A stretch of 64,000 bases of DNA, taken from assembly GCF_900109555.1 (NCBI RefSeq), contig NZ_FNZV01000004.1, positions 1-64,000 of the forward strand, in the 5' to 3' direction. This DNA comes from Pacificibacter marinus (lineage in GTDB: Bacteria > Pseudomonadota > Alphaproteobacteria > Rhodobacterales > Rhodobacteraceae). The notes under the pieces were generated by a model that searched no databases, was not told the DNA's origin, and was given only the letters and a program-made list of their open reading frames with translations. The translations under genes and the position numbers were made by a program. Below, piece by piece: positions 9,514 through 21,069 of this stretch (within the stretch, counting starts at the first letter, position 1; each line of letters begins with the position of its first letter).

Positions 9514-10790
9514 ACCAGAACACGGTCCATTTTTTCAGCGACCTGCACGGCGGAATGGAACCCGTCTTCGTGAAATCCATTGCGCAAATATGCACCCGCG
9601 AACCAAGTGCGATTGTCGCCATTGATCGATTGAATGGTCTGCTGTGCATTCAACGCGGCATTGTCAAAAACTGGGTGATAGAGCGTTGTTTCATCATATA
9701 TTTTTGCTTCATCAATTGGCGTTGCGGCATTGAGCGTGACAAACAAAGGATCGTTTTCATCAATGGCTTGCAATTTGTTCATCCAATAGGTGACGCCAAG
9801 AGCTTGCTCTTGACCTACGGCGTCAGATTTATAAACCCATGACGACCAACAGGCGCGGCGTTTGGGCATTTGCGATGGGTCGCTGTGTAGGGTCACACGA
9901 TTGGCTTGATAGCGCAAATCAGACAGGGCTTTGTGCTCTGTCAGAGTTGGTTTGGCCAGCAGTTTCAGCGCTTGATCCGAGTGACATGCAAACACCACCT
10001 GATCAAAATGATCTTGCGTGCCGCATTGGGTTTTAATCGTCACCCCAAAAGCATCGCGGGTCACAGCGGCCACAGGGGTGCCAAGTCTGAATGTGCAGCC
10101 CATAAGTGTTAGATGGGTCTCAAGTCGCTTTATATACTCGATAGAACCGCCCTTGACCGTGTACCATTGGTGCTGCCCCGTGGCGGACAATAGCGCATGA
10201 TTGCGAAAGAACCGCAGCAAAGACGCAGCAGGATAATTGCGAATTTCACTGGGTGGCGTTGACCAAATAGCCCCGCAAATCGGCATCAAATAGTATTGAA
10301 TGAACCAATCCCCAAGCTGCAAGTCTTGCACCAACGCCCCGATGGTTGTGGTCTCATCAGTGACGTGGGCTTGGGCCGTTTGGTTGAATTTGAAAATATC
10401 ACGGACCATGCGTAAAAAGGCTGGACGTGCGATGTTGGATTTTTGCCCAAACAGCGCTCCAAGTCCCTGCAATCCGTATTCAACCGCGCCGCCATTGATG
10501 GTTGCACCAAAGCTCATGTCCGATTTGATCACAGGTACATTGAGCGCATCAAACATCGCCGTGAGGTTTGGATAATTGGCGTAATTGAAGACAATAAAAC
10601 CGGTATCAACAGGTTGATCGCCGCTTTTGCCTGCCATCAAGGTGCGGGCATGGCCACCCAATCGCGGCTCTGATTCAAACACGGTTACGTCATGCTCGGG
10701 CGACATCAGATAAGCACTGGCTAGCCCTGATATGCCAGACCCAATAATAGCGATGCGTTTGCGGGCGCGGGGAGGGATATCAAATGACAT
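9510..10790 (-). CDS. FAD-dependent amine-oxidase-like oxidoreductase (RpoE-linked operon)
   Basis: 426-residue NAD(P)-binding Rossmann/FAD protein. After a short basic start it has RKRIAIIGSGISGLASA (dinucleotide loop at 17-26), ESEPRLGGHARTL, and QWYTVKGGSIEYI in the middle, as in the flavin amine oxidase-like proteins paired with DUF1365. The ATG at 10790 is preceded by AGGAAA; the open frame extends 96 codons upstream across the intergenic promoter region and is not believed. An RpoE-type promoter places its -10 about 24 bases before the start. A desaturase or oxidase acting on fatty acyl chains is plausible from related clusters, but this is not shown by the sequence. Confidence 0.9.
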   Translation of the reverse strand: MSFDIPPRARKRIAIIGSGISGLASAYLMSPEHDVTVFESEPRLGGHARTLMAGKSGDQPVDTGFIVFNYANYPNLTAMFDALNVPVIKSDMSFGATINGGAVEYGLQGLGALFGQKSNIARPAFLRMVRDIFKFNQTAQAHVTDETTTIGALVQDLQLGDWFIQYYLMPICGAIWSTPPSEIRNYPAASLLRFFRNHALLSATGQHQWYTVKGGSIEYIKRLETHLTLMGCTFRLGTPVAAVTRDAFGVTIKTQCGTQDHFDQVVFACHSDQALKLLAKPTLTEHKALSDLRYQANRVTLHSDPSQMPKRRACWSSWVYKSDAVGQEQALGVTYWMNKLQAIDENDPLFVTLNAATPIDEAKIYDETTLYHPVFDNAALNAQQTIQSINGDNRTWFAGAYLRNGFHEDGFHSAVQVAEKMDRVLV

Positions 10791-10813
10791 AGCGTTTCCT
10801 GTGTTGATTATCT

Positions 10814-10843
10814 TGTCTACGTGGCACGGCGACAAATAGATCA
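10814..10843 (-). promoter_or_regulatory. RpoE-type promoter of the FAD oxidoreductase operon
   Basis: On the minus strand a -35 TGATCT (10838-10843) and a -10 TAGACA (10814-10819) are separated by 18 bases. This matches the Rhodobacter RpoE pattern (TGATC then TAAGA-like) and lies about 24 bases before the start codon. It mirrors the promoter at 10869-10898 on the other strand. Confidence 0.7.
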
Positions 10844-10868
10844 AAATGAAAGTCACTGAATCTATTTG

Positions 10869-10898
10869 TGATCCACAACTCGACGCTGTGCGTAAGAC
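10869..10898 (+). promoter_or_regulatory. RpoE-type promoter of rpoE-chrR
   Basis: A -35 TGATCC (10869-10874) and a -10 TAAGAC (10893-10898) are separated by 18 bases, about 98 bases before the rpoE start. Both hexamers agree with the R. sphaeroides RpoE consensus as I know it, which suggests autoregulation. Confidence 0.72.
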
Positions 10899-10995
10899 CT
10901 GTATGATGGTTAAAGAACGACATATTTCACAGCGCGCCGTGACTGCGCGCCTCAAGCGAACGCCCCCAAGTGGGGGCAAGACGATCCTTGAAAGG

Positions 10996-11562
10996 ATGTC
11001 AGTGACTTTAGGACAGGCGACATCTTTTTCTGAGCAAACGGAATGGATGCTCAAGGTACGCGATGCTCGTGATCGCACTGCATTTGCCAGTTTGTTTGAT
11101 CATTTCGCCCCACGCTTGCGCGGGATGTTGATGAAAAACGGATTTGGTGCGGCGCAAGCCGACGATGTGATCCAAGACGTCATGCTATCTGTCTGGCGCA
11201 AAGCGTCGTCTTTTAACCCTGAGCGTGCTGAGGTGTCGGGCTGGATTTTTCAAATCGCCCGCAACCGTCAAATTGATGTGATCCGCAAAGAACGCCGACC
11301 CATGCCCGAAGACTTGGCTATGCCCGAAAGCACGGACATCGATGGCGAACAGGTTTTAGGCATCGAACAAGAGGTGCAGAAATTGCGCAGCGCGATTGCA
11401 CGTCTCACACCCGATCAACGCGATTTGGTGCAAAAAGCTTATTTGGGTGAATTGACCCACAGTGAAATCCAAGCCGAAACGGGTCTTCCGCTTGGCACGA
11501 TTAAATCCCGCATTCGCCTTGGTTTAGAGCGTTTGCGGTTTGAGATGAAAGGAGAGCGGTAA
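10996..11562 (+). CDS. rpoE: RNA polymerase sigma factor RpoE (ECF, ChrR-controlled)
   Basis: ECF sigma factor that directs transcription of the singlet-oxygen/photo-oxidative stress response when released from ChrR. The 188-residue protein has region 2 around DDVIQDVMLSVWRKA (56-70) and a region 4 helix-turn-helix around THSEIQAETGLPLGTIK (154-170). It closely follows Rhodobacter RpoE in layout. The ATG at 10996 gives the family-length N-terminus; in-frame codons upstream run through the promoter and are discounted. An AAAGG directly abuts the start, unusually close for a ribosome site, so initiation at ATG 11047 is a weaker alternative. chrR follows 2 bases downstream. Confidence 0.94.
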   Translation: MSVTLGQATSFSEQTEWMLKVRDARDRTAFASLFDHFAPRLRGMLMKNGFGAAQADDVIQDVMLSVWRKASSFNPERAEVSGWIFQIARNRQIDVIRKERRPMPEDLAMPESTDIDGEQVLGIEQEVQKLRSAIARLTPDQRDLVQKAYLGELTHSEIQAETGLPLGTIKSRIRLGLERLRFEMKGER

Positions 11563-11564
11563 AC

Positions 11565-12203
11565 ATGACTGACATCGCTCATCATATTCCTGACGCGCTT
11601 CTGGCGTCTTATGTTGCTGGCTCTTTGGCGCGCCCATTTGCGATGGTTGTCGCGGCGCACGTGTCAATTTGCGAAGAGTGCCGCGCCAATTTGGCCGCCC
11701 ATGAAACTGTTGGCGGTGCGTTGCTGCACGATTTTGAACCGATCTCGGTGTCAGATGATTTGCGCGATCGTGTGCTAGGTCATTTGGATGATCCATTTCT
11801 GGCTGAGCCCGCGCGCCCGCACGGAAATCCAACTTATCCGGCTCCTGTTGTTGAGGCGCTGGGCGACAAACCACCACGTTGGCGTTCGCTTGGTCCTGGC
11901 GCAAAACAGTGTATTTTGGAAGCTGGCAAAGCGGGATCTGTGCGTTTGTTGCACATCGCACCTGGGTTTGCCGTGCCGGATCACACCCATGGCGGGCTTG
12001 AGTTGACCTTGGTTTTACAAGGCGCGTTTACCGATGAAACGGGGCGGTTTGGACGAGGTGATCTTGAGGTGGCAGATGACGATCTTGAGCACACACCAAT
12101 CGCAGAACAAGGCATGCCCTGCATTTGCTTGGCGGCCACGGATGCGCCGTTGAAATTTAGTTCTTTCATGCCACGGCTTTTACAGCCGTTGTTCCAGATT
12201 TAA
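11565..12203 (+). CDS. chrR: Anti-sigma factor ChrR (zinc, cupin domain)
   Basis: Cytoplasmic anti-sigma factor that holds RpoE inactive and releases it when singlet oxygen is sensed. The 212 residues show both known modules. The N-terminal ZAS zinc site is His7, His32, Cys36 and Cys39 (HVSICEEC). The C-terminal cupin zinc site has His140, His142, Glu146 and His176. These sit one position away from the published R. sphaeroides ligands, so all metal positions are kept. The ribosome site GAAAGGAG overlaps the rpoE end. A terminator follows. Confidence 0.95.
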   Translation: MTDIAHHIPDALLASYVAGSLARPFAMVVAAHVSICEECRANLAAHETVGGALLHDFEPISVSDDLRDRVLGHLDDPFLAEPARPHGNPTYPAPVVEALGDKPPRWRSLGPGAKQCILEAGKAGSVRLLHIAPGFAVPDHTHGGLELTLVLQGAFTDETGRFGRGDLEVADDDLEHTPIAEQGMPCICLAATDAPLKFSSFMPRLLQPLFQI

Positions 12204-12726: not shown

Positions 12727-13647
12727 TTACATCTCATGCGCCCAAGGTGGATTTGCCCCGGCGCGGGATACGGTAATTGATGCCGCTTTTGATCCCATGG
12801 CCAGTGCTGCGCGCAGCGTGTCGTCATCCAAGTCTTTGAGTGCCGCCTTGGTCAGTTTCCCGCTGTCTTGCAGTGATGCCAACAGCCCAGCGTTAAACGT
12901 GTCACCTGCGCCAACGGTGTCGGCCACGTCGACCTTGGTGGCGGCGACTTGTACGATACCGTTTTTGGTAAAACCGCGCACGCCCTCAGAGCCTTCGGTC
13001 AAACAAACAAGGCTTGGCCCTTGGGTCAAAAGTGTTTGAATATGCTGTTCAATATCGCCATCGCCCATAATCCACAAAAGGTCTTCGTCAGACACTTTGA
13101 CGATATCACAAAGCGACAACATGTGGTCCATACGCGCACGATACCGCGCCTCGTCTTTGATAAAAGAGGGCCGAATATTTGGGTCCATCATGATCACGCG
13201 GGTCGCAGCCTCGCGCGCACAAAGCGCTTCATAGACTTCGCCGCAAGGTTCCACAGGCAATGAAATACCGCCAAAAAACAGCGCCTCAATAGTGTCTGGT
13301 AGGACAGGCAAATCGGCTGGTGTCAGCATGCGGCCCGCAGTGTTTTCATCGTAAAACGCATAGGTAGCATGGCCATCGACCAATTTGACAAAAGCAACTG
13401 TGCAAGGGCGATCCTTGGTCACAACCAAAGATGCGTCCACACCACTTTCGGCAAGTTTGGATTTCAACAATTCCCCAAAGAAATCATTTGATAACCCCGA
13501 ATAAAACGCGGGGCCTGCGCCAAGTCGGCCCAATGCAATCGCCGTATTAAACACCGCGCCGCCTGCATGAGGGGCATAGGCATCTTCGCCCAGCGTAGAT
13601 TCACGGGGCAACATATCGATTAGAGCTTCTCCGGCACACAGGATCAT
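12727..13647 (-). CDS. PfkB-family carbohydrate kinase, probable fructokinase
   Basis: 306-residue ribokinase-family sugar kinase. It starts [13 protein letters not shown], has the GG signature at residues 29-30 in [10 protein letters not shown], and the second PfkB signature [12 protein letters not shown] at 243-254 with catalytic Asp249. DPNIRP at 155-160 is common to fructokinases, which makes phosphorylation of fructose the best guess, but specificity cannot be read from sequence. AAGGAAA precedes the ATG. Cotranscribed with dtd. Confidence 0.9.
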
Positions 13648-13733
13648 GGCGCATTTCCTTATTGGGTCGCTTGGGTTTTAGGGCCGTTAGCGCTATCGGG
13701 GCAAGTATTATCTGCGCAAACCTGCAACCAAAA

Positions 13734-14846
13734 TCACTGATATTCAGAGGCAATATAGCCGACTGCACCGGCAATGAGGACACCCGCAAGGATTGCAAAA
13801 GCAATTTTCCACCGAGACCAAGGGCGCTCGCCTTGCACACGCCCACTGCGTCCGTTGACGACAAAGCGATACGTTTTGCCACGGTATTTATAGGCGGCCA
13901 TCCACACGGGCAGTAAAACATGTTTAAAGGTCACGTTTGAAATCTGTGTTTGCACGTCATGCACGCGCTGGCGGTCACCACCGATGTCAAATTTCACGTC
14001 CCGCAAGATAACGTTGTCCATATAGCCACGTGCAGTTCTGAACCCATCTTCAATCTCGACTGTGTAACTCTCTGCCCGAAACCCTGCAATATAATCAGGT
14101 ACATAAGGTTCCATCGCTTGCAGATCCCAAGGTTCTAAACCTTCGGTATATTTGCGTGGTAATGACGTTGACGCCAGCACCAAAACATCATCAAAAAATC
14201 GTGCGACACGTCCAGATTTGTTGCGCCATTTGGTGCGACGTTCGCGAACTTGTTGGGTTTTCCCATTCCGTGTCACAGTTTTGGTGACATAATAATCGTC
14301 GCCACGCATCCCAGAATACTGTGATTTTGTATCGGCATCAAAGGTCCAGTAGGGCACGTAGATACCTGAAAGTTTACGTCCTTTGCGGGCGTATTCTTTC
14401 AATCCGTTCGGGGCAAACCACAACCCGCCTAGCCAATCATTCATCGCATCGTGGGCAGAGGGTTCACTGAGTGCGAATGGCAGCAATCCACGTGGTTTAA
14501 TCTGGCGATGAAGGCCCGTGTCAGTGACCACAGGTGTGGCGCAAAACGGACAATCCGTGGCATGTACTTCGGCGTCGAATTCCACATGTGCCCCACAGTT
14601 TGGGCACTCCGATATACGGGTTTCTTCGATGTCTTGCTGCGGTAACAGGTCTTGGATCGCGCTGAGATAATCTAGTTCATGCGGTCCTGTTGCGCCCCCG
14701 ATTTCCAACACCTCAGAGGCACCGCAATGATCGCAAACCAGTTGACTTTGGTCTGGTGAAAACCGCATATCCGCACCGCATGTCGTGCAAGGAAATCTGT
14801 GGTTTTCGAGAGCAACATCATGAGCTTGTCCATCGCTATATGCCAT
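13734..14846 (-). CDS. Membrane-anchored zinc-ribbon protein (XpaC-TelA-SPFH operon)
   Basis: 370 residues with two zinc ribbons at the N-terminus: CTTCG (Cys20/23) with CDHC (38/41), then CPNC (81/84) with CPFC (99/102). One transmembrane helix lies at the extreme C-terminus (about 345-365), so the ribbons and the 230-residue middle should be cytoplasmic on a tail anchor. Such proteins are often mislabelled primosomal protein N', but no helicase motif is present. The start at 14846 overlaps the upstream gene by 11 bases. It is the last gene of the xpaC operon. Proteins of similar plan accompany SPFH/PspA membrane-stress genes in Bacillus (ydjG-ydjI), which supports an envelope role by analogy. 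Confidence 0.85.
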   Translation of the reverse strand: MAYSDGQAHDVALENHRFPCTTCGADMRFSPDQSQLVCDHCGASEVLEIGGATGPHELDYLSAIQDLLPQQDIEETRISECPNCGAHVEFDAEVHATDCPFCATPVVTDTGLHRQIKPRGLLPFALSEPSAHDAMNDWLGGLWFAPNGLKEYARKGRKLSGIYVPYWTFDADTKSQYSGMRGDDYYVTKTVTRNGKTQQVRERRTKWRNKSGRVARFFDDVLVLASTSLPRKYTEGLEPWDLQAMEPYVPDYIAGFRAESYTVEIEDGFRTARGYMDNVILRDVKFDIGGDRQRVHDVQTQISNVTFKHVLLPVWMAAYKYRGKTYRFVVNGRSGRVQGERPWSRWKIAFAILAGVLIAGAVGYIASEYQ

Positions 14847-15216
14847 TGCGCCCCCCTGAATGCTCAAAGCTGACGACTTGAGCGATTTTGGTGGCCGTTT
14901 CATTGGTGTGACGGATCACGTGGCAAAAAATCCGTGACTGCGTGCCACGCGTGAGGCGCCCAGATACAGACGCGGCTTTGCCATGTGATACGACCTGATC
15001 CACGGTGATTGTGTCTGGCGCTGTGAGGTCTTCGAAAATTTTGACAATTGCAGAACGCCCCGCTGCAGGCACCTCAGTGCCACGTTCCCATGTGGCATCG
15101 ACCGCGAACATATCACAGGGCAAAGGGCCAACGCCCATCAGCGCGAGCGCGATGTCTTCGGCGCGCGCCTCATGGCGAGCGCGGCCTTCGGCTTTGCGGA
15201 TCACTTTCGGTGGCAT
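14836..15216 (-). CDS. Small NTF2-like protein (XpaC-TelA-SPFH operon)
   Basis: 126-residue protein starting PPKVIRKAEGRARHEARAED. The remainder (for example VVSHGKAASVSGRLTRGTQS and FCHVIRHTNETATKI) has the strand pattern of SnoaL/NTF2-like folds. I do not recognise a named family with certainty. It lies 24 bases after the SPFH gene and overlaps the zinc-ribbon gene by 11 bases, so it belongs to the operon. No signal peptide or membrane segment is visible. It may be a small binding or adaptor protein (inference). Confidence 0.75.
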   Translation of the reverse strand: MPPKVIRKAEGRARHEARAEDIALALMGVGPLPCDMFAVDATWERGTEVPAAGRSAIVKIFEDLTAPDTITVDQVVSHGKAASVSGRLTRGTQSRIFCHVIRHTNETATKIAQVVSFEHSGGRNGI

Positions 15217-15240
15217 GCTCTCTAATCCAACGATTGAAAT

Positions 15241-16341
15241 TTAAGCGCCTGGTGGCGGGGGTGGTGGGGCCACTGAAAACAGTTGTGACAACTCAATCAC
15301 ATCGTCGGCTTCAAGCCAGCCATCTTGACCTGGGGTCCAGACGAATGTTGCGCGCGACAACGTGCCTTTGGCTGCCATTTGTCCCATTTCTGCTTTGGAA
15401 AACGGCCCCTTGGTTTCGCCATTTACGGCGATATGCCAAACGTGTTCAACGGGTGGGGGCGGTGGCGCTTGGACAGCTGTCGTAGGGCGTGGGCCCCATG
15501 GGCCTGCTTGCGTTGCCATACTCATGCCAAGCCCTGCTCCCATGCCCGCACCCATAGATGCTGCCATTGCAGAGTTTTCAGCGCCCATGCCTTCGGCTGC
15601 GTTGAATTTCATGTAGTTGTCGAGATTGCCAACGATGCCCATTGAGGTGCGTTTGTCGAGTGCGGCCTCAACTGCTTCGGGCAGGCTGATATTTTCGATG
15701 TAGAACTCAGGTATTACAAGACCGTATTCTGCCACGACCTTGGAAATCTCAGTCGCAACAAGTTTGCCCAAGCCATCGGTATTGGCGGCCATATCGAGCA
15801 CAGGGATGCCGCTAGAGGCGACGATGCGCGAAAAGGCTTGCACGATGATGTTGCGGATTTGGTATGAGATCTCATCCATCGTAAATTCGCCGTCCGTGCC
15901 GACGATTTCGGTCAAAAACAACGCAGGATTTGATACTTTTACCGTGTAGGTGCCGTAAGCGCGAATGCGCACTGGGCCGAATTCAGGATCGCGACACATG
16001 ATGGGGTTTTTTGTGCCCCATTTCAGGTCCGCAAAGCGTGTCGTGTTGACGTAATACACTTCGGATTTGAACGGAGATTTAAACCCATGATCCCAGTGAT
16101 TGAGTGTTGTCAACACGGGCATGTTGTTGGTCTCTAACATATAAAGGCCGGGGGGGAATACATCCGCCAATTGACCTTCGTGAACGAAAACAGCAGCTTG
16201 TCCCTCGCGAACCGTCAACTTTGCACCGTATTTGATCTCATGATCTTCACGTTCAAAGCGCCACACCATCGTGTCGCGGGTGTCGTCTGTCCAGTGGATG
16301 ACGTCAATAAATTCACCCGTTAGAAAATCGAAAATACCCAT
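15241..16341 (-). CDS. SPFH-domain protein with C-terminal GYF_2 domain
   Basis: 366 residues. The first 230 form an SPFH (band-7/flotillin-like) domain of the YdjI/virion-core type, starting MGIFDFLTGEFIDVIHW. A Gly/Met/Ala-rich linker follows, then a proline run, then a GYF_2 domain around 297-345 with HVWHIAVNGETKGPFSKAEM and a WLEADDV end. GYF domains bind proline-rich peptides, and the linker itself ends in prolines. No membrane helix is seen, so membrane binding would be peripheral. It is the middle gene of the xpaC operon. SPFH proteins scaffold membrane microdomains, and this one likely recruits the zinc-ribbon or TelA partners (inference). Confidence 0.88.
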   Translation of the reverse strand: MGIFDFLTGEFIDVIHWTDDTRDTMVWRFEREDHEIKYGAKLTVREGQAAVFVHEGQLADVFPPGLYMLETNNMPVLTTLNHWDHGFKSPFKSEVYYVNTTRFADLKWGTKNPIMCRDPEFGPVRIRAYGTYTVKVSNPALFLTEIVGTDGEFTMDEISYQIRNIIVQAFSRIVASSGIPVLDMAANTDGLGKLVATEISKVVAEYGLVIPEFYIENISLPEAVEAALDKRTSMGIVGNLDNYMKFNAAEGMGAENSAMAASMGAGMGAGLGMSMATQAGPWGPRPTTAVQAPPPPPVEHVWHIAVNGETKGPFSKAEMGQMAAKGTLSRATFVWTPGQDGWLEADDVIELSQLFSVAPPPPPPGA

Positions 16342-16359
16342 CGGGGTCTCCTTTGGCTG

Positions 16360-17331
16360 TCAGTTGTTATCGCCCATGATCTCACGCGCGATTTGCGCGG
16401 AAATGGGGCGGGCTATTTCAGGGGGCATGCCTGTATGTAAACGCGGGTCATACAGAATGCGTAAAAGCAGTTCGTCGTGTGGTGTCAAAAGCGCAAATTC
16501 TTCGTCGTCGTTGAAAATAGATGGGCGCGCGCGCGGGGTGTCATTGGCAAGGCCAAGTCCCTGCGCGATTTCTTCGTGGAAACATGATTTGCGCATCAAA
16601 TCTGGGTGTTCGCCGCGAATGATTGCCACAGCTTGGCGATACGCACCATTGTCTGCCGGATCAGAGGCGATGACCAAGCAATAGCTTGATCTAGGCATGT
16701 TTTCGACAGACTTGATGGCCGCTTGTCCAATGCCTGGGATCAGTTGCTCAAGGCGTGGTCCAATGCTTTGGCGTTCATCTTCGTTCAACACCAAAACGTG
16801 AAAGTTGGGGCGTGAAGACAGCGTGATGGAATGGCCGCTGGCGCGCGCAAGCCGTTCGGTGAGGTCCGTGACTGTCTTGCGATCTTTGGCGCGCTGGATG
16901 TCAGGGATACTGGCCCCGAATTCCAATCCAATGCGCACGGGTTCTGTCCAGCGGTGCAAGGATGAGGGCGTGGTGCGCGCCACAAAAGCGCCACCGATGG
17001 TCGTATATTCGTCGTTTAGCGCGATTGCATCAAAATTTCTGGCCAATTGGTGTGTGGAAAAGGGCGCATCAGTGCTGCCTGAATCTGTGCGCAACAAATC
17101 ATTGCGCAACAAATCTGATTGTACTTTGGCATAATAATCGGCCATCGCGCGGCTTTGCGCCGAGGGCACGCGATCGATGGGCGTTTGCACCGTGCTCGGT
17201 GCTGTTTGAATGTTTGGACGTGGTTGTGGAATAGGGGACACCGCAGGCGCGACGCAACCTGTTAAAGCTGCGCATGCCACTAGTATTGCGCAAATACTGT
17301 GTCGGCCGTATGCGATGTCCCCTTGTGTCAT
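16360..17331 (-). CDS. DUF2927 lipoprotein, putative metallopeptidase-like
   Basis: 323 residues from the ATG at 17331. The signal peptide ends in the lipobox LTGC (Cys26), so the mature protein is lipid-anchored and periplasmic. A proline-rich spacer follows, then a DUF2927 domain. Its core CFHEEIAQGLGL (about 250-261) resembles a zinc-protease helix with HExxxQ in place of HExxH and a following AND/D context. Whether it is catalytic cannot be told. A tandem 15-base duplication encodes the repeated DLLRN/DLLRT near residue 75. It starts 1 base after the telA stop and is the only clearly periplasmic member of this operon. Confidence 0.85.
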   Translation of the reverse strand: MTQGDIAYGRHSICAILVACAALTGCVAPAVSPIPQPRPNIQTAPSTVQTPIDRVPSAQSRAMADYYAKVQSDLLRNDLLRTDSGSTDAPFSTHQLARNFDAIALNDEYTTIGGAFVARTTPSSLHRWTEPVRIGLEFGASIPDIQRAKDRKTVTDLTERLARASGHSITLSSRPNFHVLVLNEDERQSIGPRLEQLIPGIGQAAIKSVENMPRSSYCLVIASDPADNGAYRQAVAIIRGEHPDLMRKSCFHEEIAQGLGLANDTPRARPSIFNDDEEFALLTPHDELLLRILYDPRLHTGMPPEIARPISAQIAREIMGDNN

Positions 17332-17332
17332 A

Positions 17333-18523
17333 TTAGCCTGACACTGCTGTGCCAGCAGTGTCGCCGGTGCCCGTGCGTTTGGCTTTGGCTGACGCAAGCG
17401 TGTCGCGCAAATCAGCTTCCATTTGCTTCAAATCAGCTTCGGCTGCGGCGCGTTTGGCCTTGCCGTCATCTGCAATCTGTAGACTTTCTTGGATCGTTGC
17501 GATCAGATCGGCATTGGCAGTTTTCACGGCCTCAATATCGAACACGCCACGTTCCATTTCTTGGCGCACCACTTTGTTGGCATCGCGCAGATTTTTGGCG
17601 TTTGATGTGAGCAGTTCATTTGTCAGATCATTCGCTTCGCGTACGGCATATGCAGCCTCGGAAGAGCGTTGAATGGTGACGGCCTGAGCCAATTGTGTTT
17701 CCCACAACGGCACAGTGTTGACCAAAGTTGAATTGATTTTGGTGACAAGTGATTTATCGTTCTCTTGCACCAGACGGATCGAGGGCAAGGACTGCATGGT
17801 CACTTGGCGTGTGAGTTTTAGATCATGCACACGACGTTCCAGATCGTCCCGTGCTGCGCGCAGATCACGCAACTCTTGCGCTTTCATAATCTGATCACTC
17901 TCAGACGCTGCGGTAACTTCCGCTTCTTTGGCAGGGATAGTCACACCGTCGAGTTCTTTGAGTTTTTCTTCGCCAGCCGTGATGTAGATGCCCAATTCGT
18001 TGTAAAACGTCAAAGTGCGATCATACAGAATGTCGAGCGATTTAATGTCTTTAAGCAGAGTATGTTCGTGCGACAAAAGGTTGTCTGTGATGTCGTCGAT
18101 TTGGCTTTGAACCGTTTCAAAACGCGCCACGAATTTTGCCATCGGTGCCGCGCGGCCCAAAAGCTTTTCCCACCATGAACGGTCGCGGCGCACATCCAGT
18201 TCCGACACGGAAAACCCGCGAATGGTGGACACGATGGATCGCAAGCTGTCGCCCGCTGGGCCAACATCTTTGTTGCGCACATCGGCGAGCATCGCTTGGG
18301 AAATTTCTTGTAACTCGGCCTGTGCGCCTGAGCCAAAACGCACGATGGAATTCGTGTCACTCATGTCGATCTCGGCCATCGCGCTGCGAATGGAATCTGC
18401 TTGTGCGGGCTCTGCTGCCTCAAGCACAATCAAGTCACTTGCGGGTTCTGGCAAAACAACGGCTGTGACCGCTTCGACGTCTTTTAATGTGGCTTCAGCC
18501 TTTTGGCGCGTGATGTCGGACAT
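17333..18523 (-). CDS. telA: TelA-family toxic-anion-resistance protein
   Basis: 396-residue largely helical protein of the TelA/KlaA family. It has GFSVSELDVRRDRSWWEKLLG at the family's conserved region (about 107-127), a long coiled-coil-rich centre, and an Ala/Lys-rich C-terminal helix. No signal peptide or membrane helix. The name comes from plasmid tellurite resistance, but chromosomal copies are widespread and their role is unsettled. It lies 27 bases after xpaC, and the xpaC-telA pairing is conserved across bacteria. Here it leads into DUF2927 and SPFH genes, suggesting a cytoplasmic arm of a membrane-stress complex (inference). Confidence 0.92.
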   Translation of the reverse strand: MSDITRQKAEATLKDVEAVTAVVLPEPASDLIVLEAAEPAQADSIRSAMAEIDMSDTNSIVRFGSGAQAELQEISQAMLADVRNKDVGPAGDSLRSIVSTIRGFSVSELDVRRDRSWWEKLLGRAAPMAKFVARFETVQSQIDDITDNLLSHEHTLLKDIKSLDILYDRTLTFYNELGIYITAGEEKLKELDGVTIPAKEAEVTAASESDQIMKAQELRDLRAARDDLERRVHDLKLTRQVTMQSLPSIRLVQENDKSLVTKINSTLVNTVPLWETQLAQAVTIQRSSEAAYAVREANDLTNELLTSNAKNLRDANKVVRQEMERGVFDIEAVKTANADLIATIQESLQIADDGKAKRAAAEADLKQMEADLRDTLASAKAKRTGTGDTAGTAVSG

Positions 18524-18550
18524 GAGATCCCCCTGAGATAACCCTATGAT

Positions 18551-19438
18551 TTACTTTATACCTTCGCGGGCCAAACGGTCGCGAAGCACATCGATTTCGA
18601 TATCAAGATCGACTTTATTGTCTAAAAGTAACGCTTTATTGCGTGCTGTGAAGTTGCTCTCAAGGTCGTGCAAGAGAGCCAAATAGGACGTGCGCGCTTC
18701 AGTATTGCGGCTGCGCGCCCAAATGTCTGCAAATTTGATCGTCGCATCGCGGGCGCCAAGCAAATAAACGCCCAGATACTTGCGCGCTGCCGTCAGATCG
18801 CGTGGATCTTCTTCAACAGTGCGAAACATCGCGCGGGCAGTTTTGGTGAATTGGTCAAGACGGTTTTGTGCTTCGCGGTCGTTGATGCGTTCAAGCGCCT
18901 CACGCATGGATGTCAGGTGGCGTTCAGCCTCGGTCACGGCCTTGGCAACACGATCTTGCTGAAATGTGTCGACCCCTTCCATGCCTTTGTGTTTCAAAGG
19001 ATCGATGCCAAAGGAAAAGCTGTGCAACCCAGCGCCGAGCACGGCAAAGATCACAGCCTCAACTGGACCCCATCCGACTATGCCAACAAGCCCCAGACCG
19101 AGACCGGTCAACACGGACGCAAATATCTTGCGCGGGATCGCAGGGCGCCGCGCCACTTTGCGGGCGTCATATGCTTCTTCGGCTCTTAACCCTTCGCGGG
19201 TCAACCAAGCAGCCCCGACCAACAGTCCCAACGCTACGATGTACTGCGCCATTACGATAGGATCCGCATCAAAAGCCTTCCACGCTAAAGGCAGAGCTGC
19301 GTAGAATAAAAGGTTAGAGCGCGCGCCAACACGAGACGGTTTTTTACCATCAAAAGGACGGGCTGCTGGGGTGCTCGACGTTTTTTTTGCGCTATCTGAA
19401 GTCTCGGGGGAGTACTTTGAACCGTACCGTTTTGCCAT
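18551..19438 (-). CDS. xpaC: XpaC-family membrane protein
   Basis: 295 residues from the ATG at 19438. A basic, proline-containing cytoplasmic N-terminus is followed by hydrophobic segments near 45-60 and 65-80, then a hairpin near 105-140 rich in Gly and Leu. The C-terminal half is soluble and helical, with TEAERHLTSMREALERI and an end like LLDNKVDLDIEIDVLRDRL. This is the XpaC (5-bromo-4-chloroindolyl phosphate hydrolysis) family; the historical name does not imply phosphatase activity. It is the first large gene of the operon. A 25-codon ORF sits 13 bases upstream. Confidence 0.88.
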   Translation of the reverse strand: MAKRYGSKYSPETSDSAKKTSSTPAARPFDGKKPSRVGARSNLLFYAALPLAWKAFDADPIVMAQYIVALGLLVGAAWLTREGLRAEEAYDARKVARRPAIPRKIFASVLTGLGLGLVGIVGWGPVEAVIFAVLGAGLHSFSFGIDPLKHKGMEGVDTFQQDRVAKAVTEAERHLTSMREALERINDREAQNRLDQFTKTARAMFRTVEEDPRDLTAARKYLGVYLLGARDATIKFADIWARSRNTEARTSYLALLHDLESNFTARNKALLLDNKVDLDIEIDVLRDRLAREGIK

Positions 19439-19451
19439 GTACTTGTTCGCC

Positions 19452-19529
19452 TTATATACCAAGGGTGGCGTAAAAGGTCAGTGCAACCAGCAGATAGTAG
19501 GCAAGTTTTTGGGCGCTTTTGGCACTCAT
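19452..19529 (-). CDS. 25-residue hydrophobic peptide preceding xpaC
   Basis: An ATG at 19529 follows GGAGTGAC at a usable distance. The frame encodes MSAKSAQKLAYYLLVALT plus seven more residues, then TAA at 19452. It has a short basic N-terminus and a single hydrophobic helix, as expected for a small inner-membrane protein. The stop is 13 bases before the xpaC ATG, so it would be the first cistron of the operon. It is too short for standard gene callers. Support comes from the ribosome site, residue composition and position; coding has not been tested. Confidence 0.5.
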   Translation of the reverse strand: MSAKSAQKLAYYLLVALTFYATLGI

Positions 19530-19680
19530 ATCGCAGTCACTCCATACCTTTGCGGTGATATACCCGCTTTGCCCAAAAGGGCCTTGCCTTAAGATATAGG
19601 AAACAATTGACGCGCTTGAAAGGGGTAAGCGCGGGGAAGCTTATATCGATGCTCCCCCTCGCGTTTCTTATGGGCGTCGA

Positions 19681-21069
19681 TCAATCGCGCTTTTTACCGC
19701 CACCACCACGTGGCCCACTTGATGGTTTGCCGTCGCCGTGAGATTTAAAGCCCTTGGCGCGGCCTCCATCGGCAGTGCCGCGTGATTTAAAGCCTGCGGA
19801 TTTGAACGCGGGTTTGCCATCTCGGTCGCCTGATTTGCCTTTGTAGCCTTCGCCGCGTGGGGCGCGATCGTCACGATCTCCGCGTGGTTTAAACCCGTCG
19901 CTTTTGGGACCGCGTGATTTGAAATCACGATCGTCGCGGTCGCCACGTGGTTTGAAGTCACGGTCTTTTGGCCCACGATCATCACGGTCGCCACGTGGTT
20001 TAAACCCACCGCCTTTAGGTCCGCGATCATCGCGGTCACGCGAATCTGAGCGGCCAAAGCTTTCTTTGCGTGGGCCACCAGGTTTGCCGCCACGGCTGAC
20101 TTGGCGGCGGGGTTCACGTGGCTCTGATGGGTGTTCGATGTCAGACGCAAAAGGGTCGATGCCAAGCTGATCGCGCAGCACGCGGGCTTTGACTTCTTCG
20201 GCTTGTCCGGGGCGAATTGTGCCCAAACGGAACGGTCCGTAAGAAATGCGCATCAAACGGTTCACCACCACGCCGATGTGTTCCATCGCGCGGCGCACCT
20301 CGCGGTTGCGACCTTCGCGGATGCCGATTGTCAGCCAAGCGTTTGCGCCTTGTTGGCGGTCAAACACGGCTTCCATCGGTTGGAAATCTTCGCCGTCGAT
20401 GGTGATGCCTTTGCGCAGTTGGTCCAGCAGGGCTTCGGACGGTGATCCTTTGACGCGGACACGGTATTTGCGCAACCAGCCAGTATCTGGCAGTTCAAGC
20501 TTGCGTTTCAATTCGCCATCATTGGTGAGCAGCAGCAAACCTTCGGAATTCAAATCGAGACGGCCAACAGACAAAACACGTGGCAGACCAGCTGGTAGGT
20601 TTTGAAATACGGTCGGGCGGTCGAGTTCGTCTTTTTCGGTTGTCACGAGGCCGAGTGGCTTGTGATACAGCCACAAACGTGGGGGCTCAGGCTCGCCGAT
20701 GGCTTGCCCGTCAACGGTGATGCGGTCTTTGGGCAAAACGTTCAAAGCGGGCGAGACAACTTTGCGACCATTCACGGTCACGCGGCCTTCTTCGATGATA
20801 ACCTCGCAATCGCGGCGCGAGGCAACGCCTGCGCGGGCCAGAACCTTCGCGATCCGGTCGCCGGGGCGTGTGCCATCTTCTGCGGCCTCGGGGCCTTTTG
20901 CAGGCCCTTGGGCTGGCGCGCCTTTCTTGGCGTATGGATTTGTGGGGGGCTTTTTGTAAGTTTTGCCCTCTGTCGATCCATGGCTACGGGAGCCTTTGCT
21001 TTTGGAAACAAAGGAGGGAGCGCCAGATTTTGCGCCGCGTGCGGGTTTTTTATCGGAATCGCGTGTCAT
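19681..21069 (-). CDS. rluB: 23S rRNA pseudouridine synthase RluB-type with repetitive basic tail
   Basis: RsuA-family pseudouridine synthase, most likely modifying U2605 of 23S rRNA. The 462 residues comprise a basic Lys/Pro N-terminal extension (1-70), an S4 RNA-binding domain (about 72-105, RIAKVLARAGVASRRDCE), and the catalytic domain with GRLDLNSEGLLLL (Asp172 the nucleophile). From about 325 onward the tail is a low-complexity array of FKPRGDRDDRGPK-like repeats. Repetitive charged tails are common on alphaproteobacterial RluB and differ between strains. It is divergent from tadA. Confidence 0.92.
   Translation of the reverse strand: MTRDSDKKPARGAKSGAPSFVSKSKGSRSHGSTEGKTYKKPPTNPYAKKGAPAQGPAKGPEAAEDGTRPGDRIAKVLARAGVASRRDCEVIIEEGRVTVNGRKVVSPALNVLPKDRITVDGQAIGEPEPPRLWLYHKPLGLVTTEKDELDRPTVFQNLPAGLPRVLSVGRLDLNSEGLLLLTNDGELKRKLELPDTGWLRKYRVRVKGSPSEALLDQLRKGITIDGEDFQPMEAVFDRQQGANAWLTIGIREGRNREVRRAMEHIGVVVNRLMRISYGPFRLGTIRPGQAEEVKARVLRDQLGIDPFASDIEHPSEPREPRRQVSRGGKPGGPRKESFGRSDSRDRDDRGPKGGGFKPRGDRDDRGPKDRDFKPRGDRDDRDFKSRGPKSDGFKPRGDRDDRAPRGEGYKGKSGDRDGKPAFKSAGFKSRGTADGGRAKGFKSHGDGKPSSGPRGGGGKKRD

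Follow-up and report, generated by a model that had tools for sequence, protein, structure and literature searches.

A conserved alphaproteobacterial operon joining XpaC-TelA and SPFH-zinc ribbon gene pairs, a candidate envelope-stress system

RESULTS

Gene content and layout of the operon

We analyzed a stretch of 64,000 nucleotides from Pacificibacter marinus (Rhodobacteraceae; contig NZ_FNZV01000004.1, positions 1 to 64,000), hereafter called the window. Its minus strand carries a tightly packed operon with the gene order XpaC-TelA-DUF2927-SPFH/GYF_2-SnoaL-like-double zinc ribbon and a small open reading frame (ORF) upstream. An earlier reading of the DNA letters alone, referred to as the original prediction, had described these six genes and the small ORF as one module spanning periplasm, membrane and cytosol. 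All of them were indeed present, the view of one conserved module was supported, and Pfam confirmed XpaC, TelA, DUF2927, SPFH and GYF_2. Coordinates are those of the window, and L and G numbers label the loci and genomes that were compared. The features are as follows:

19592..19626, minus strand: promoter-like element (ACCCCTTTCAAG...CCTATATCT), with a -10-like part from 19600 and a score of 19.4 bits
19452..19529, minus strand: microprotein MSAKSAQKLAYYLLVALTFYATLGI with one predicted transmembrane helix, supported by profile matches and pN/pS
18551..19438, minus strand: XpaC-like membrane protein (PF10112, 4.7e-25; alignment)
17333..18523, minus strand: TelA (PF05816, 2.9e-106), predicted to be all-helical with a very long helical hairpin
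16360..17331, minus strand: DUF2927 lipoprotein with lipobox LTGC (PF11150, 8.5e-58) and a metzincin-like model, with E253, Q257 and N263
15241..16341, minus strand: SPFH and GYF_2 protein (Band_7_1, PF13421, 7.1e-99; GYF_2, PF14237, 2.6e-20)
about 15438-15289 and about 15267-15250, minus strand, within the SPFH gene: GYF_2 domain and proline tail PPPPPP, respectively
14836..15216, minus strand: 126-amino-acid (aa) SnoaL/NTF2-like accessory protein, present in few genera only
13734..14846, minus strand: YdjG-like double zinc ribbon protein with a C-terminal transmembrane anchor (8 invariant Cys; Enterococcus homologue)

The start of xpaC is ATG 19438 (MAKRYGSKYSP; elsewhere MAQRFGGKYSP) instead of TTG 19462, that of the DUF2927 gene is most likely ATG 17331, and that of the zinc ribbon gene is at about ATG 14846. 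The PF10112 and PF05816 genes are adjacent on one strand and thus form an XpaC-TelA dyad. Beyond gene content and order, sequence comparison revealed four features that were new with respect to the original prediction: the membrane microprotein, the conserved promoter-like element, a modeled metalloprotease fold with its three zinc histidines substituted, and the pairing of GYF_2 with a proline tail.

The gene order is conserved in the family and beyond

A scan for SPFH over contigs of one genome per species confirmed at least 585 relatives, of which the best 80 were kept; these loci are the closest kin of the window and no random sample. Among the matches listed, the nearest were those of Celeribacter litoreus (89% SPFH identity) and C. 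neptunius (86%). The order XpaC-TelA-DUF2927-SPFH-zinc ribbon was kept in 73 of the 80 loci: 58 in the plain form, 7 with the gene for the 126-aa protein, 7 preceded by an XpaC-like gene in tandem and 1 with a second SPFH fragment. Six of the remaining seven (L088, L091, L103, L124, L129 and L134) are located close to the end of a contig, a possible reason for their missing genes; in the seventh, L162, the zinc ribbon gene is found elsewhere on the opposite strand. In 8 of the 80 loci (L095, L101, L102, L107, L113, L145, L157 and L162), xpaC is preceded by a diverged second copy of an XpaC-like gene, in tandem; of two such genes scanned, one reached the Pfam cut-off and the other gave no PF10112 match.

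A draw of 149 genomes from the family contained TelA in 133 and DUF2927 in 142. Among 28 family neighborhoods (L046 and L058 to L084), picked mostly for a high TelA score, 22 were complete, 3 lacked DUF2927, 2 held XpaC-TelA only and 1 held XpaC-TelA-DUF2927. One of the complete neighborhoods, L083, has its zinc ribbon gene in two overlapping frames (10034-11181), owing to either a frameshift or an error in sequencing. In a draw of 142 genomes from the class, TelA was present in 13, DUF2927 in 17 and XpaC in 9, and XpaC-TelA-SPFH-zinc ribbon genes were clustered, without DUF2927, in four other alphaproteobacterial families (L047 to L050). These four genes are the core of the unit. The gene order is thus not confined to this strain, and its conservation is far beyond chance, even though locus counts are not all independent (the L060 and L099 stretches are identical).

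We then drew 299 genomes from the phylum, in which TelA was present in 50 and the SPFH-GYF_2 profile matched in 41, six of these via the GYF part alone (ranges read by eye). Of 18 neighborhoods, L212 was the full operon of the family itself; SPFH was present in each of the remaining 17 (16 being from other classes), with a zinc ribbon match beside it in 15. XpaC and TelA were not found in those 17 stretches, some being short contigs. Given such SPFH-zinc ribbon pairs without XpaC or TelA beside them, two widespread dyads appear to have been fused in Alphaproteobacteria to give the operon. Both pairings had been described as precedented in other bacteria, which was supported, except that the Bacillus example was given as xpaC-yceH: in the accessible parts of the literature, the TelA protein named beside XpaC is YaaN, not YceH.

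The same distribution bears on a different explanation, namely, that two independent dyads share one transcript for the same stress and form no single complex, a possibility that we take seriously but doubt. SPFH-zinc ribbon genes occur without XpaC-TelA beside them in L195 and L197 to L210 as well as in Vibrio, Comamonas, Tsukamurella and Enterococcus records, XpaC and TelA lie near each other without SPFH in L053 to L056, L058, L074 and L080, and the SPFH-zinc ribbon pair and TelA are at separate places in genomes G297, G354 and G470. The halves can therefore act separately. However, the order has been kept over five alphaproteobacterial families, longer than co-regulation alone usually preserves, which we offer as an argument only.

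A membrane microprotein directly precedes xpaC

The small ORF at 19529-19452 had been taken for a leader peptide. The ORF is there, but it encodes a conserved membrane microprotein and not a leader. A profile from 18 peptides was searched against 50,673 small ORFs from the six frames of the window and L046 to L164. The microprotein, with the approximate pattern MxxTxLQKxAYxLLIxLxFGVTSGWLGGL and one predicted helix, was found in 90 of the 112 fetched loci having xpaC, with no second match below E = 1 in any locus listed. It lies directly upstream of xpaC (placed by the xpaC profile) in 89 of the 90, at -4 to +30 nt (median, -1), and 692 nt away in L123. Under an ATG-preferring rule, its start was ATG in 79, GTG in 7, TTG in 4 and CTG in 1 of 91 loci including the window. 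The xpaC start overlaps its stop codon or directly adjoins it, lying -4 to +5 nt away in 67 of the 69 loci where the start pattern matched.

The pN/pS ratio over 85 aligned cores (38 independent pairs; a few cores were anchored off register) was 0.32 (bootstrap, 0.25-0.39); the two remaining frames gave 1.2 and 2.0. Since the ratio is low only in its own frame, the microprotein is, by this measure, a coding gene under protein-level selection. The frame extends upstream in 22 of the 91 loci, giving a two-helix form of 62 to 108 residues at the furthest start. Pfam contained no family above cut-off for the microprotein.

A promoter-like element lies in front of the operon

A word search followed by an iterated matrix on 88 non-redundant upstream regions identified the consensus CTAGCA-N17-CTATAT (.cC.CTaGCaag..g..gc...a.cgCCTATaTTt) in 54 of them, and 51 of the 54 elements lie 30-54 nt before the microprotein start. 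The same matrix found a mean of 1.1 sites in 20 shuffles; since it was fitted on the same loci, this excess is partly by construction, whereas the specificity is not. Indeed, in 4.53 Mb (the window and L046 to L164, both strands counted), an automatic rule placed 51 of 73 sites over 14 bits at the start of the operon. The other 22 sites, read by eye, comprised 11 before the long two-helix microprotein form (11 of the 22 loci having that form), 1 before XpaC and the small ORF (L081), 3 before SPFH, 1 before a zinc ribbon gene and 6 elsewhere. All 42 sites over 20 bits were at the operon, 35 by the rule and 7 as read by eye.

The element was also found within 130 nt of split-off SPFH genes (more than 250 nt from the preceding gene) in 4 of 15 cases (L062, L068, L075 and L123), compared with 0 of 84 contiguous ones; at thresholds of 8, 10 and 12, the counts were 5, 4 and 3 of 15 versus 0 of 84. 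For split-off zinc ribbon genes over 10 bits, the signal was weak (3/52 versus 1/47). The pooled p value of 0.0024 is carried by SPFH and is optimistic, since the loci are related. The element before split-off SPFH genes is evidence, from related loci, of co-regulation, and co-regulation is all that two independent dyads would need for its re-use before split units.

Published promoter classes were compared with CTAGCA-N17-CTATAT as described in the accessible parts of the respective papers. Neither the RpoHI/RpoHII promoters of Rhodobacter sphaeroides, with a conserved TTG at -35 (PMC3441632, PMC10673084), nor the CenR site (TGA-N8-TGA; PMC9275681) fits. A sigma-70 scan of 13500-19800 found promoters and terminators no commoner than in shuffles.

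The DUF2927 lipoprotein has a metzincin-like fold with substituted zinc ligands

The original prediction had ascribed a protease-like motif to the DUF2927 lipoprotein. The lipobox is present, and an AlphaFold2 model (pLDDT 89.6) is metzincin-like: residues 99-297 match matrix metalloproteases (MMPs) and karilysin with Z up to 11.6 over 146 residues (rmsd 2.6), and the 50 structural matches listed all come from MMPs or karilysin, with Z of 10.7-11.6. Foldseek gave a probability of about 1.0, with a best E of only 1.8e-3. A sequence search for solved structures returned no relative for DUF2927 or for TelA.

Registered on the invariant Cys250, H-E-x-x-H-x-x-G-x-x-H reads E253-E254-x-x-Q257-x-x-G260-x-x-N263, with E253, E254, Q257 and G260 in 38 of 38 aligned members and N263 in 37. 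The zinc motif HExxHxxGxxH/D is thus absent, all three zinc-His positions being non-His in 38/38, and the stretch after the motif, inspected for a Met-turn, reads PSIFND, without Met, in 38/38 (from sequence only). For DUF2927 outside the operon, 14 of the 23 places in the class draw were fetched. L224 gave no match; among the 13 that matched, 9 had the EExxQ form, 3 (L225, L218 and L226) kept histidines as HExxHxxGxxH or HExxHxxGxxGH, and in L223 the pattern was not found. Because these three keep canonical or near-canonical zinc motifs, likely active as well as likely dead proteins appear to be grouped in PF11150.

On the evidence of model and alignment, the operon protein is most likely a pseudo-metzincin whose site is invariant and has been repurposed. 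The predicted protease likeness therefore holds for the fold; with the zinc ligands lost, peptide binding or sensing would be likelier than proteolysis. Were the lipoprotein an active metallopeptidase that uses unusual ligands (E-E-x-x-Q...N) and cleaves a signal in the periplasm, this would account for the matrixin fold, the retained general-base Glu and the invariance of the substituted E253, E254 and Q257 themselves, but we consider it very unlikely, as histidines are kept in L225, L218 and L226 and at none of the three positions here. A second DUF2927, in a 511-aa open frame (G000:C32:250145-250747; L213), is also of the degenerate EExxQ form, and most of the 142 DUF2927-bearing family genomes have at least two DUF2927 matches.

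GYF_2 travels with a proline tail in the SPFH protein

GYF domains bind proline-rich peptides. Among 135 SPFH sequences, a PPPxP-type tail was present in 119 of 121 with GYF_2 and in 0 of 14 without it, two of the latter (L117 and L202) being fragments. The two exceptions with GYF_2 are L129, cut by a contig end, and a Vibrio protein ending in PPPIQRA. PPP is also found just ahead of the GYF_2 domain in 118. Such a tail ends 90 of 3872 stop-to-stop ORFs of at least 150 codons. Among solved GYF domains, the nearest comes from the gliding protein AgmX (7z3c, E 3.5e-9). Because GYF_2 travels with proline runs of the kind that GYF domains bind, we specifically infer that GYF_2 may contact the tail, in cis or in trans. 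Elsewhere, the C-terminal module of SPFH varies: it is a zinc ribbon in Enterococcus and SHOCT-like or helix-turn-helix in others (by eye), and one Comamonas gene is annotated as SPFH and helix-turn-helix.

The zinc ribbon protein has two CxxC ribbons, none of whose eight Cys varies among 23 aligned sequences, and a C-terminal membrane helix read by eye, in agreement with the tail-anchored double zinc ribbon proposed initially. A YpeB-like Pfam match was not among 25 of the 27 families found up to E = 1. Twelve tblastn matches in plasmid records came from Paracoccus, Pseudorhodobacter, Vibrio, Comamonas, Tsukamurella and Enterococcus. The Enterococcus gallinarum homologue (26.7% over 93%, E 3e-31) sits between SPFH and TPM genes, so that this row has the same composition as ydjGHI. 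On a Vibrio coralliilyticus plasmid (L228), a TIR-domain gene is found on the opposite strand about 3 kb away from the SPFH-zinc ribbon pair, which would fit an anti-phage defense module. We regard such a function as extremely unlikely, since PADLOC gave only three marginal partial matches among the six proteins (best E 0.0098) and since the near-universal, vertically kept order in the family is unlike that of defense genes.

The genome of P. marinus itself contains no match to PF04012 (PspA) and none to PF04536 (TPM, YdjH type), and 124 of the 149 family genomes have no PspA over the cut-off. PspA was found in 0 of 6 class-draw genomes having the core module (21 of 142 overall), numbers too small to be meaningful. 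The notion that anti-correlation demonstrates a replacement of PspA was rejected, PspA being present in 3 of 16 TelA-less versus 22 of 133 TelA-bearing family genomes.

TelA, envelope stress and tellurite

The TelA model (pLDDT 72, pTM 0.63) contains a hairpin formed by two helices, each of about 80-90 residues. The 50 VIA matches listed for it (Z 8.7-14.4) include alpha-pore-forming toxins, BAR domains and bacterial dynamin, among others. No PspA/ESCRT-III chain was among these 50, which excludes nothing. Foldseek found nothing at E <= 0.001, and an ESCRT-III/PspA-like fold of TelA is not claimed.

A link between XpaC-TelA and envelope stress was seen in Bacillota papers only (PMC3139573, PMC12791056; published work is cited here and below from the accessible parts of each paper). 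In a Lactococcus transcriptome table on membrane protein overproduction and CesSR, XpaC-like llmg_1115 was up 10.3-fold and telA1 (llmg_1116) 3.4-fold (PMC3139573). In Listeria, lmo1966-lmo1967 are discussed with the garvicin KS response, and a mutant of lmo1967 (TelA) is reported to have 4-fold-higher sensitivity to nisin and 2-fold-higher sensitivity to tellurite (PMC12791056, citing Collins 2010); the same 2026 paper calls the function of the pair not well established.

The tellurite effect raises the question of whether the operon confers resistance to this toxic anion, with membrane effects being secondary. Consistent with this, published lists of chromosomal determinants of tellurite resistance include telA of R. 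sphaeroides (PMC6955997, citing O'Gara 1997). We nevertheless consider this function quite unlikely: the nisin effect in Listeria is the larger one, no oxyanion transporter or metal-reducing enzyme is among the Pfam matches of the six proteins, and the frequency of TelA in the family draw suggests a general role.

The 126-aa protein is a local accessory

The original prediction had described a small NTF2-like protein. The 126-aa protein of the window has no Pfam match; SnoaL_2 (NTF2-like fold) was detected in four of four homologues scanned (seven are known), at 3.3e-5 to 0.043, below the curated cut-off. Homologues occur in 7 of the 80 loci, in Celeribacter, Maritimibacter, Sinisalibacter and Rhodalgimonas, and in 0 of the 39 neighborhoods L046 to L084 (with a profile seeded by the window's protein), and other genomes have different ORFs in the slot. 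The protein is thus a local accessory of few genera and not part of the core. In L063, L073, L075 and L076, the slot between SPFH and zinc ribbon holds membrane proteins that look cytochrome b561-like by eye; Pfam gave nothing for that of L073.

Flanking genes

The operon is followed on the same strand by PfkB-like kinase and D-aminoacyl-tRNA deacylase-like genes (13647-12284; named by eye), and a same-strand ORF pair of about 300 and 145 aa also lies downstream of the operon in many other loci. On the plus strand, two ORFs in 10846-12203 look by eye like an ECF sigma factor and a ChrR-like anti-sigma factor, similar to the singlet-oxygen pair RpoE-ChrR; no link to the operon was shown.

DISCUSSION

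A candidate membrane-protection complex

No described pathway for this combination of genes was found in the open literature, as had been anticipated; most subscription papers lay outside that scope. Since two membrane-stress gene pairs are joined here with a microprotein, a promoter-like element and a disarmed protease-like lipoprotein, we propose that the operon may encode a membrane-protection complex working without PspA, with an envelope-stress function by analogy with its relatives. We judge the chances of this proposal to be evenly balanced.

In such a complex, the unit would be induced by envelope stress. An SPFH assembly would be anchored at the inner membrane by the YdjG-like zinc ribbon protein, a role that YdjG and YdjH play for YdjI in Bacillus. 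Binding of GYF_2 domains to the conserved PPPxP tails could cross-link SPFH subunits or recruit partners. XpaC, partnered by the microprotein as a small subunit, would bring the long-helix TelA to the membrane, where TelA might act as the cytosolic effector in the place held by PspA in Bacillus. The apparently non-catalytic metzincin-like lipoprotein may sense misplaced periplasmic peptides or tether the complex to the lipid layer, and the SnoaL-like protein would be an optional add-on. A bolder version, which we consider rather unlikely, is a distinct alphaproteobacterial surveillance machine with its own promoter class, in which the dead metalloprotease would read unfolded or cleaved periplasmic peptides, the 25-30-residue microprotein would couple it to XpaC, and TelA would do the work of PspA on an SPFH ring cross-linked by GYF_2 and polyproline.

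Several observations weigh against a single complex of this kind. Besides the loci holding only one half of the unit, 22 of the 112 loci with XpaC gave no microprotein match; nine of these are outside the family (L006, L047 to L050 and L053 to L056) and 13 within it, at least 7 of the 13 (L059, L061, L063, L068, L070, L081 and L082) having a diverged one-helix ORF or a weak match in place. Moreover, 34 of the 88 upstream regions had no element at the threshold used, and in the window itself the element is weaker and more distant, at 71 nt upstream of the microprotein. PspA is not anti-correlated with TelA in the family. Finally, replacement of PspA by TelA is an analogy, given a weak TelA model whose structural matches do not exceed what helical bundles usually give.

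Two envelope-stress-linked gene pairs of distant bacteria, neither with a settled mechanism, are fused into one conserved unit in a large family with laboratory species among its members, and the unit could reveal what TelA and XpaC do. The microprotein is short enough to escape gene finders, the promoter-like element could mark a regulon, and a protease fold seemingly turned non-catalytic provides an entry point for study.

Comparison with known systems

The XpaC-TelA half belongs to the same two families as Listeria lmo1966-1967 and Lactococcus llmg_1115-1116, which have neighboring locus numbers (PMC12791056, PMC3139573). In the accessible parts of these papers, SPFH, zinc ribbon, DUF2927 and the microprotein are not named with the Bacillota pairs, whereas all are one unit here. 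R. sphaeroides telA provides a TelA within the same bacterial family (PMC6955997), at a locus that may correspond to the present operon. The DUF2927 domain has the fold and the general-base Glu position in common with MMP-7, MMP-9 and karilysin and differs in carrying E-E-x-x-Q-x-x-G-x-x-N in place of their zinc histidines.

The closest parallel to the other half is PspA-YdjGHI of B. subtilis, with which it shares an SPFH Band_7_1 protein beside a double zinc ribbon membrane protein (PMC8581546, PMC11237479). There, YdjG combines two zinc ribbons with a membrane segment and a domain related to YpeB, YdjH is a TPM protein (PMC11237479, PMC8581546), and both are required to localize YdjI and PspA at the membrane (PMC8581546). 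The likeness to YdjG is drawn through the Enterococcus homologue (93% coverage) and not through the YdjG sequence itself. In contrast to that system, the P. marinus genome lacks PspA and TPM (YdjH), and its SPFH protein ends in GYF_2 and PPPxP instead of a zinc ribbon. Relative to PspA-YdjGHI, the operon adds XpaC, TelA, the DUF2927 lipoprotein and the microprotein.

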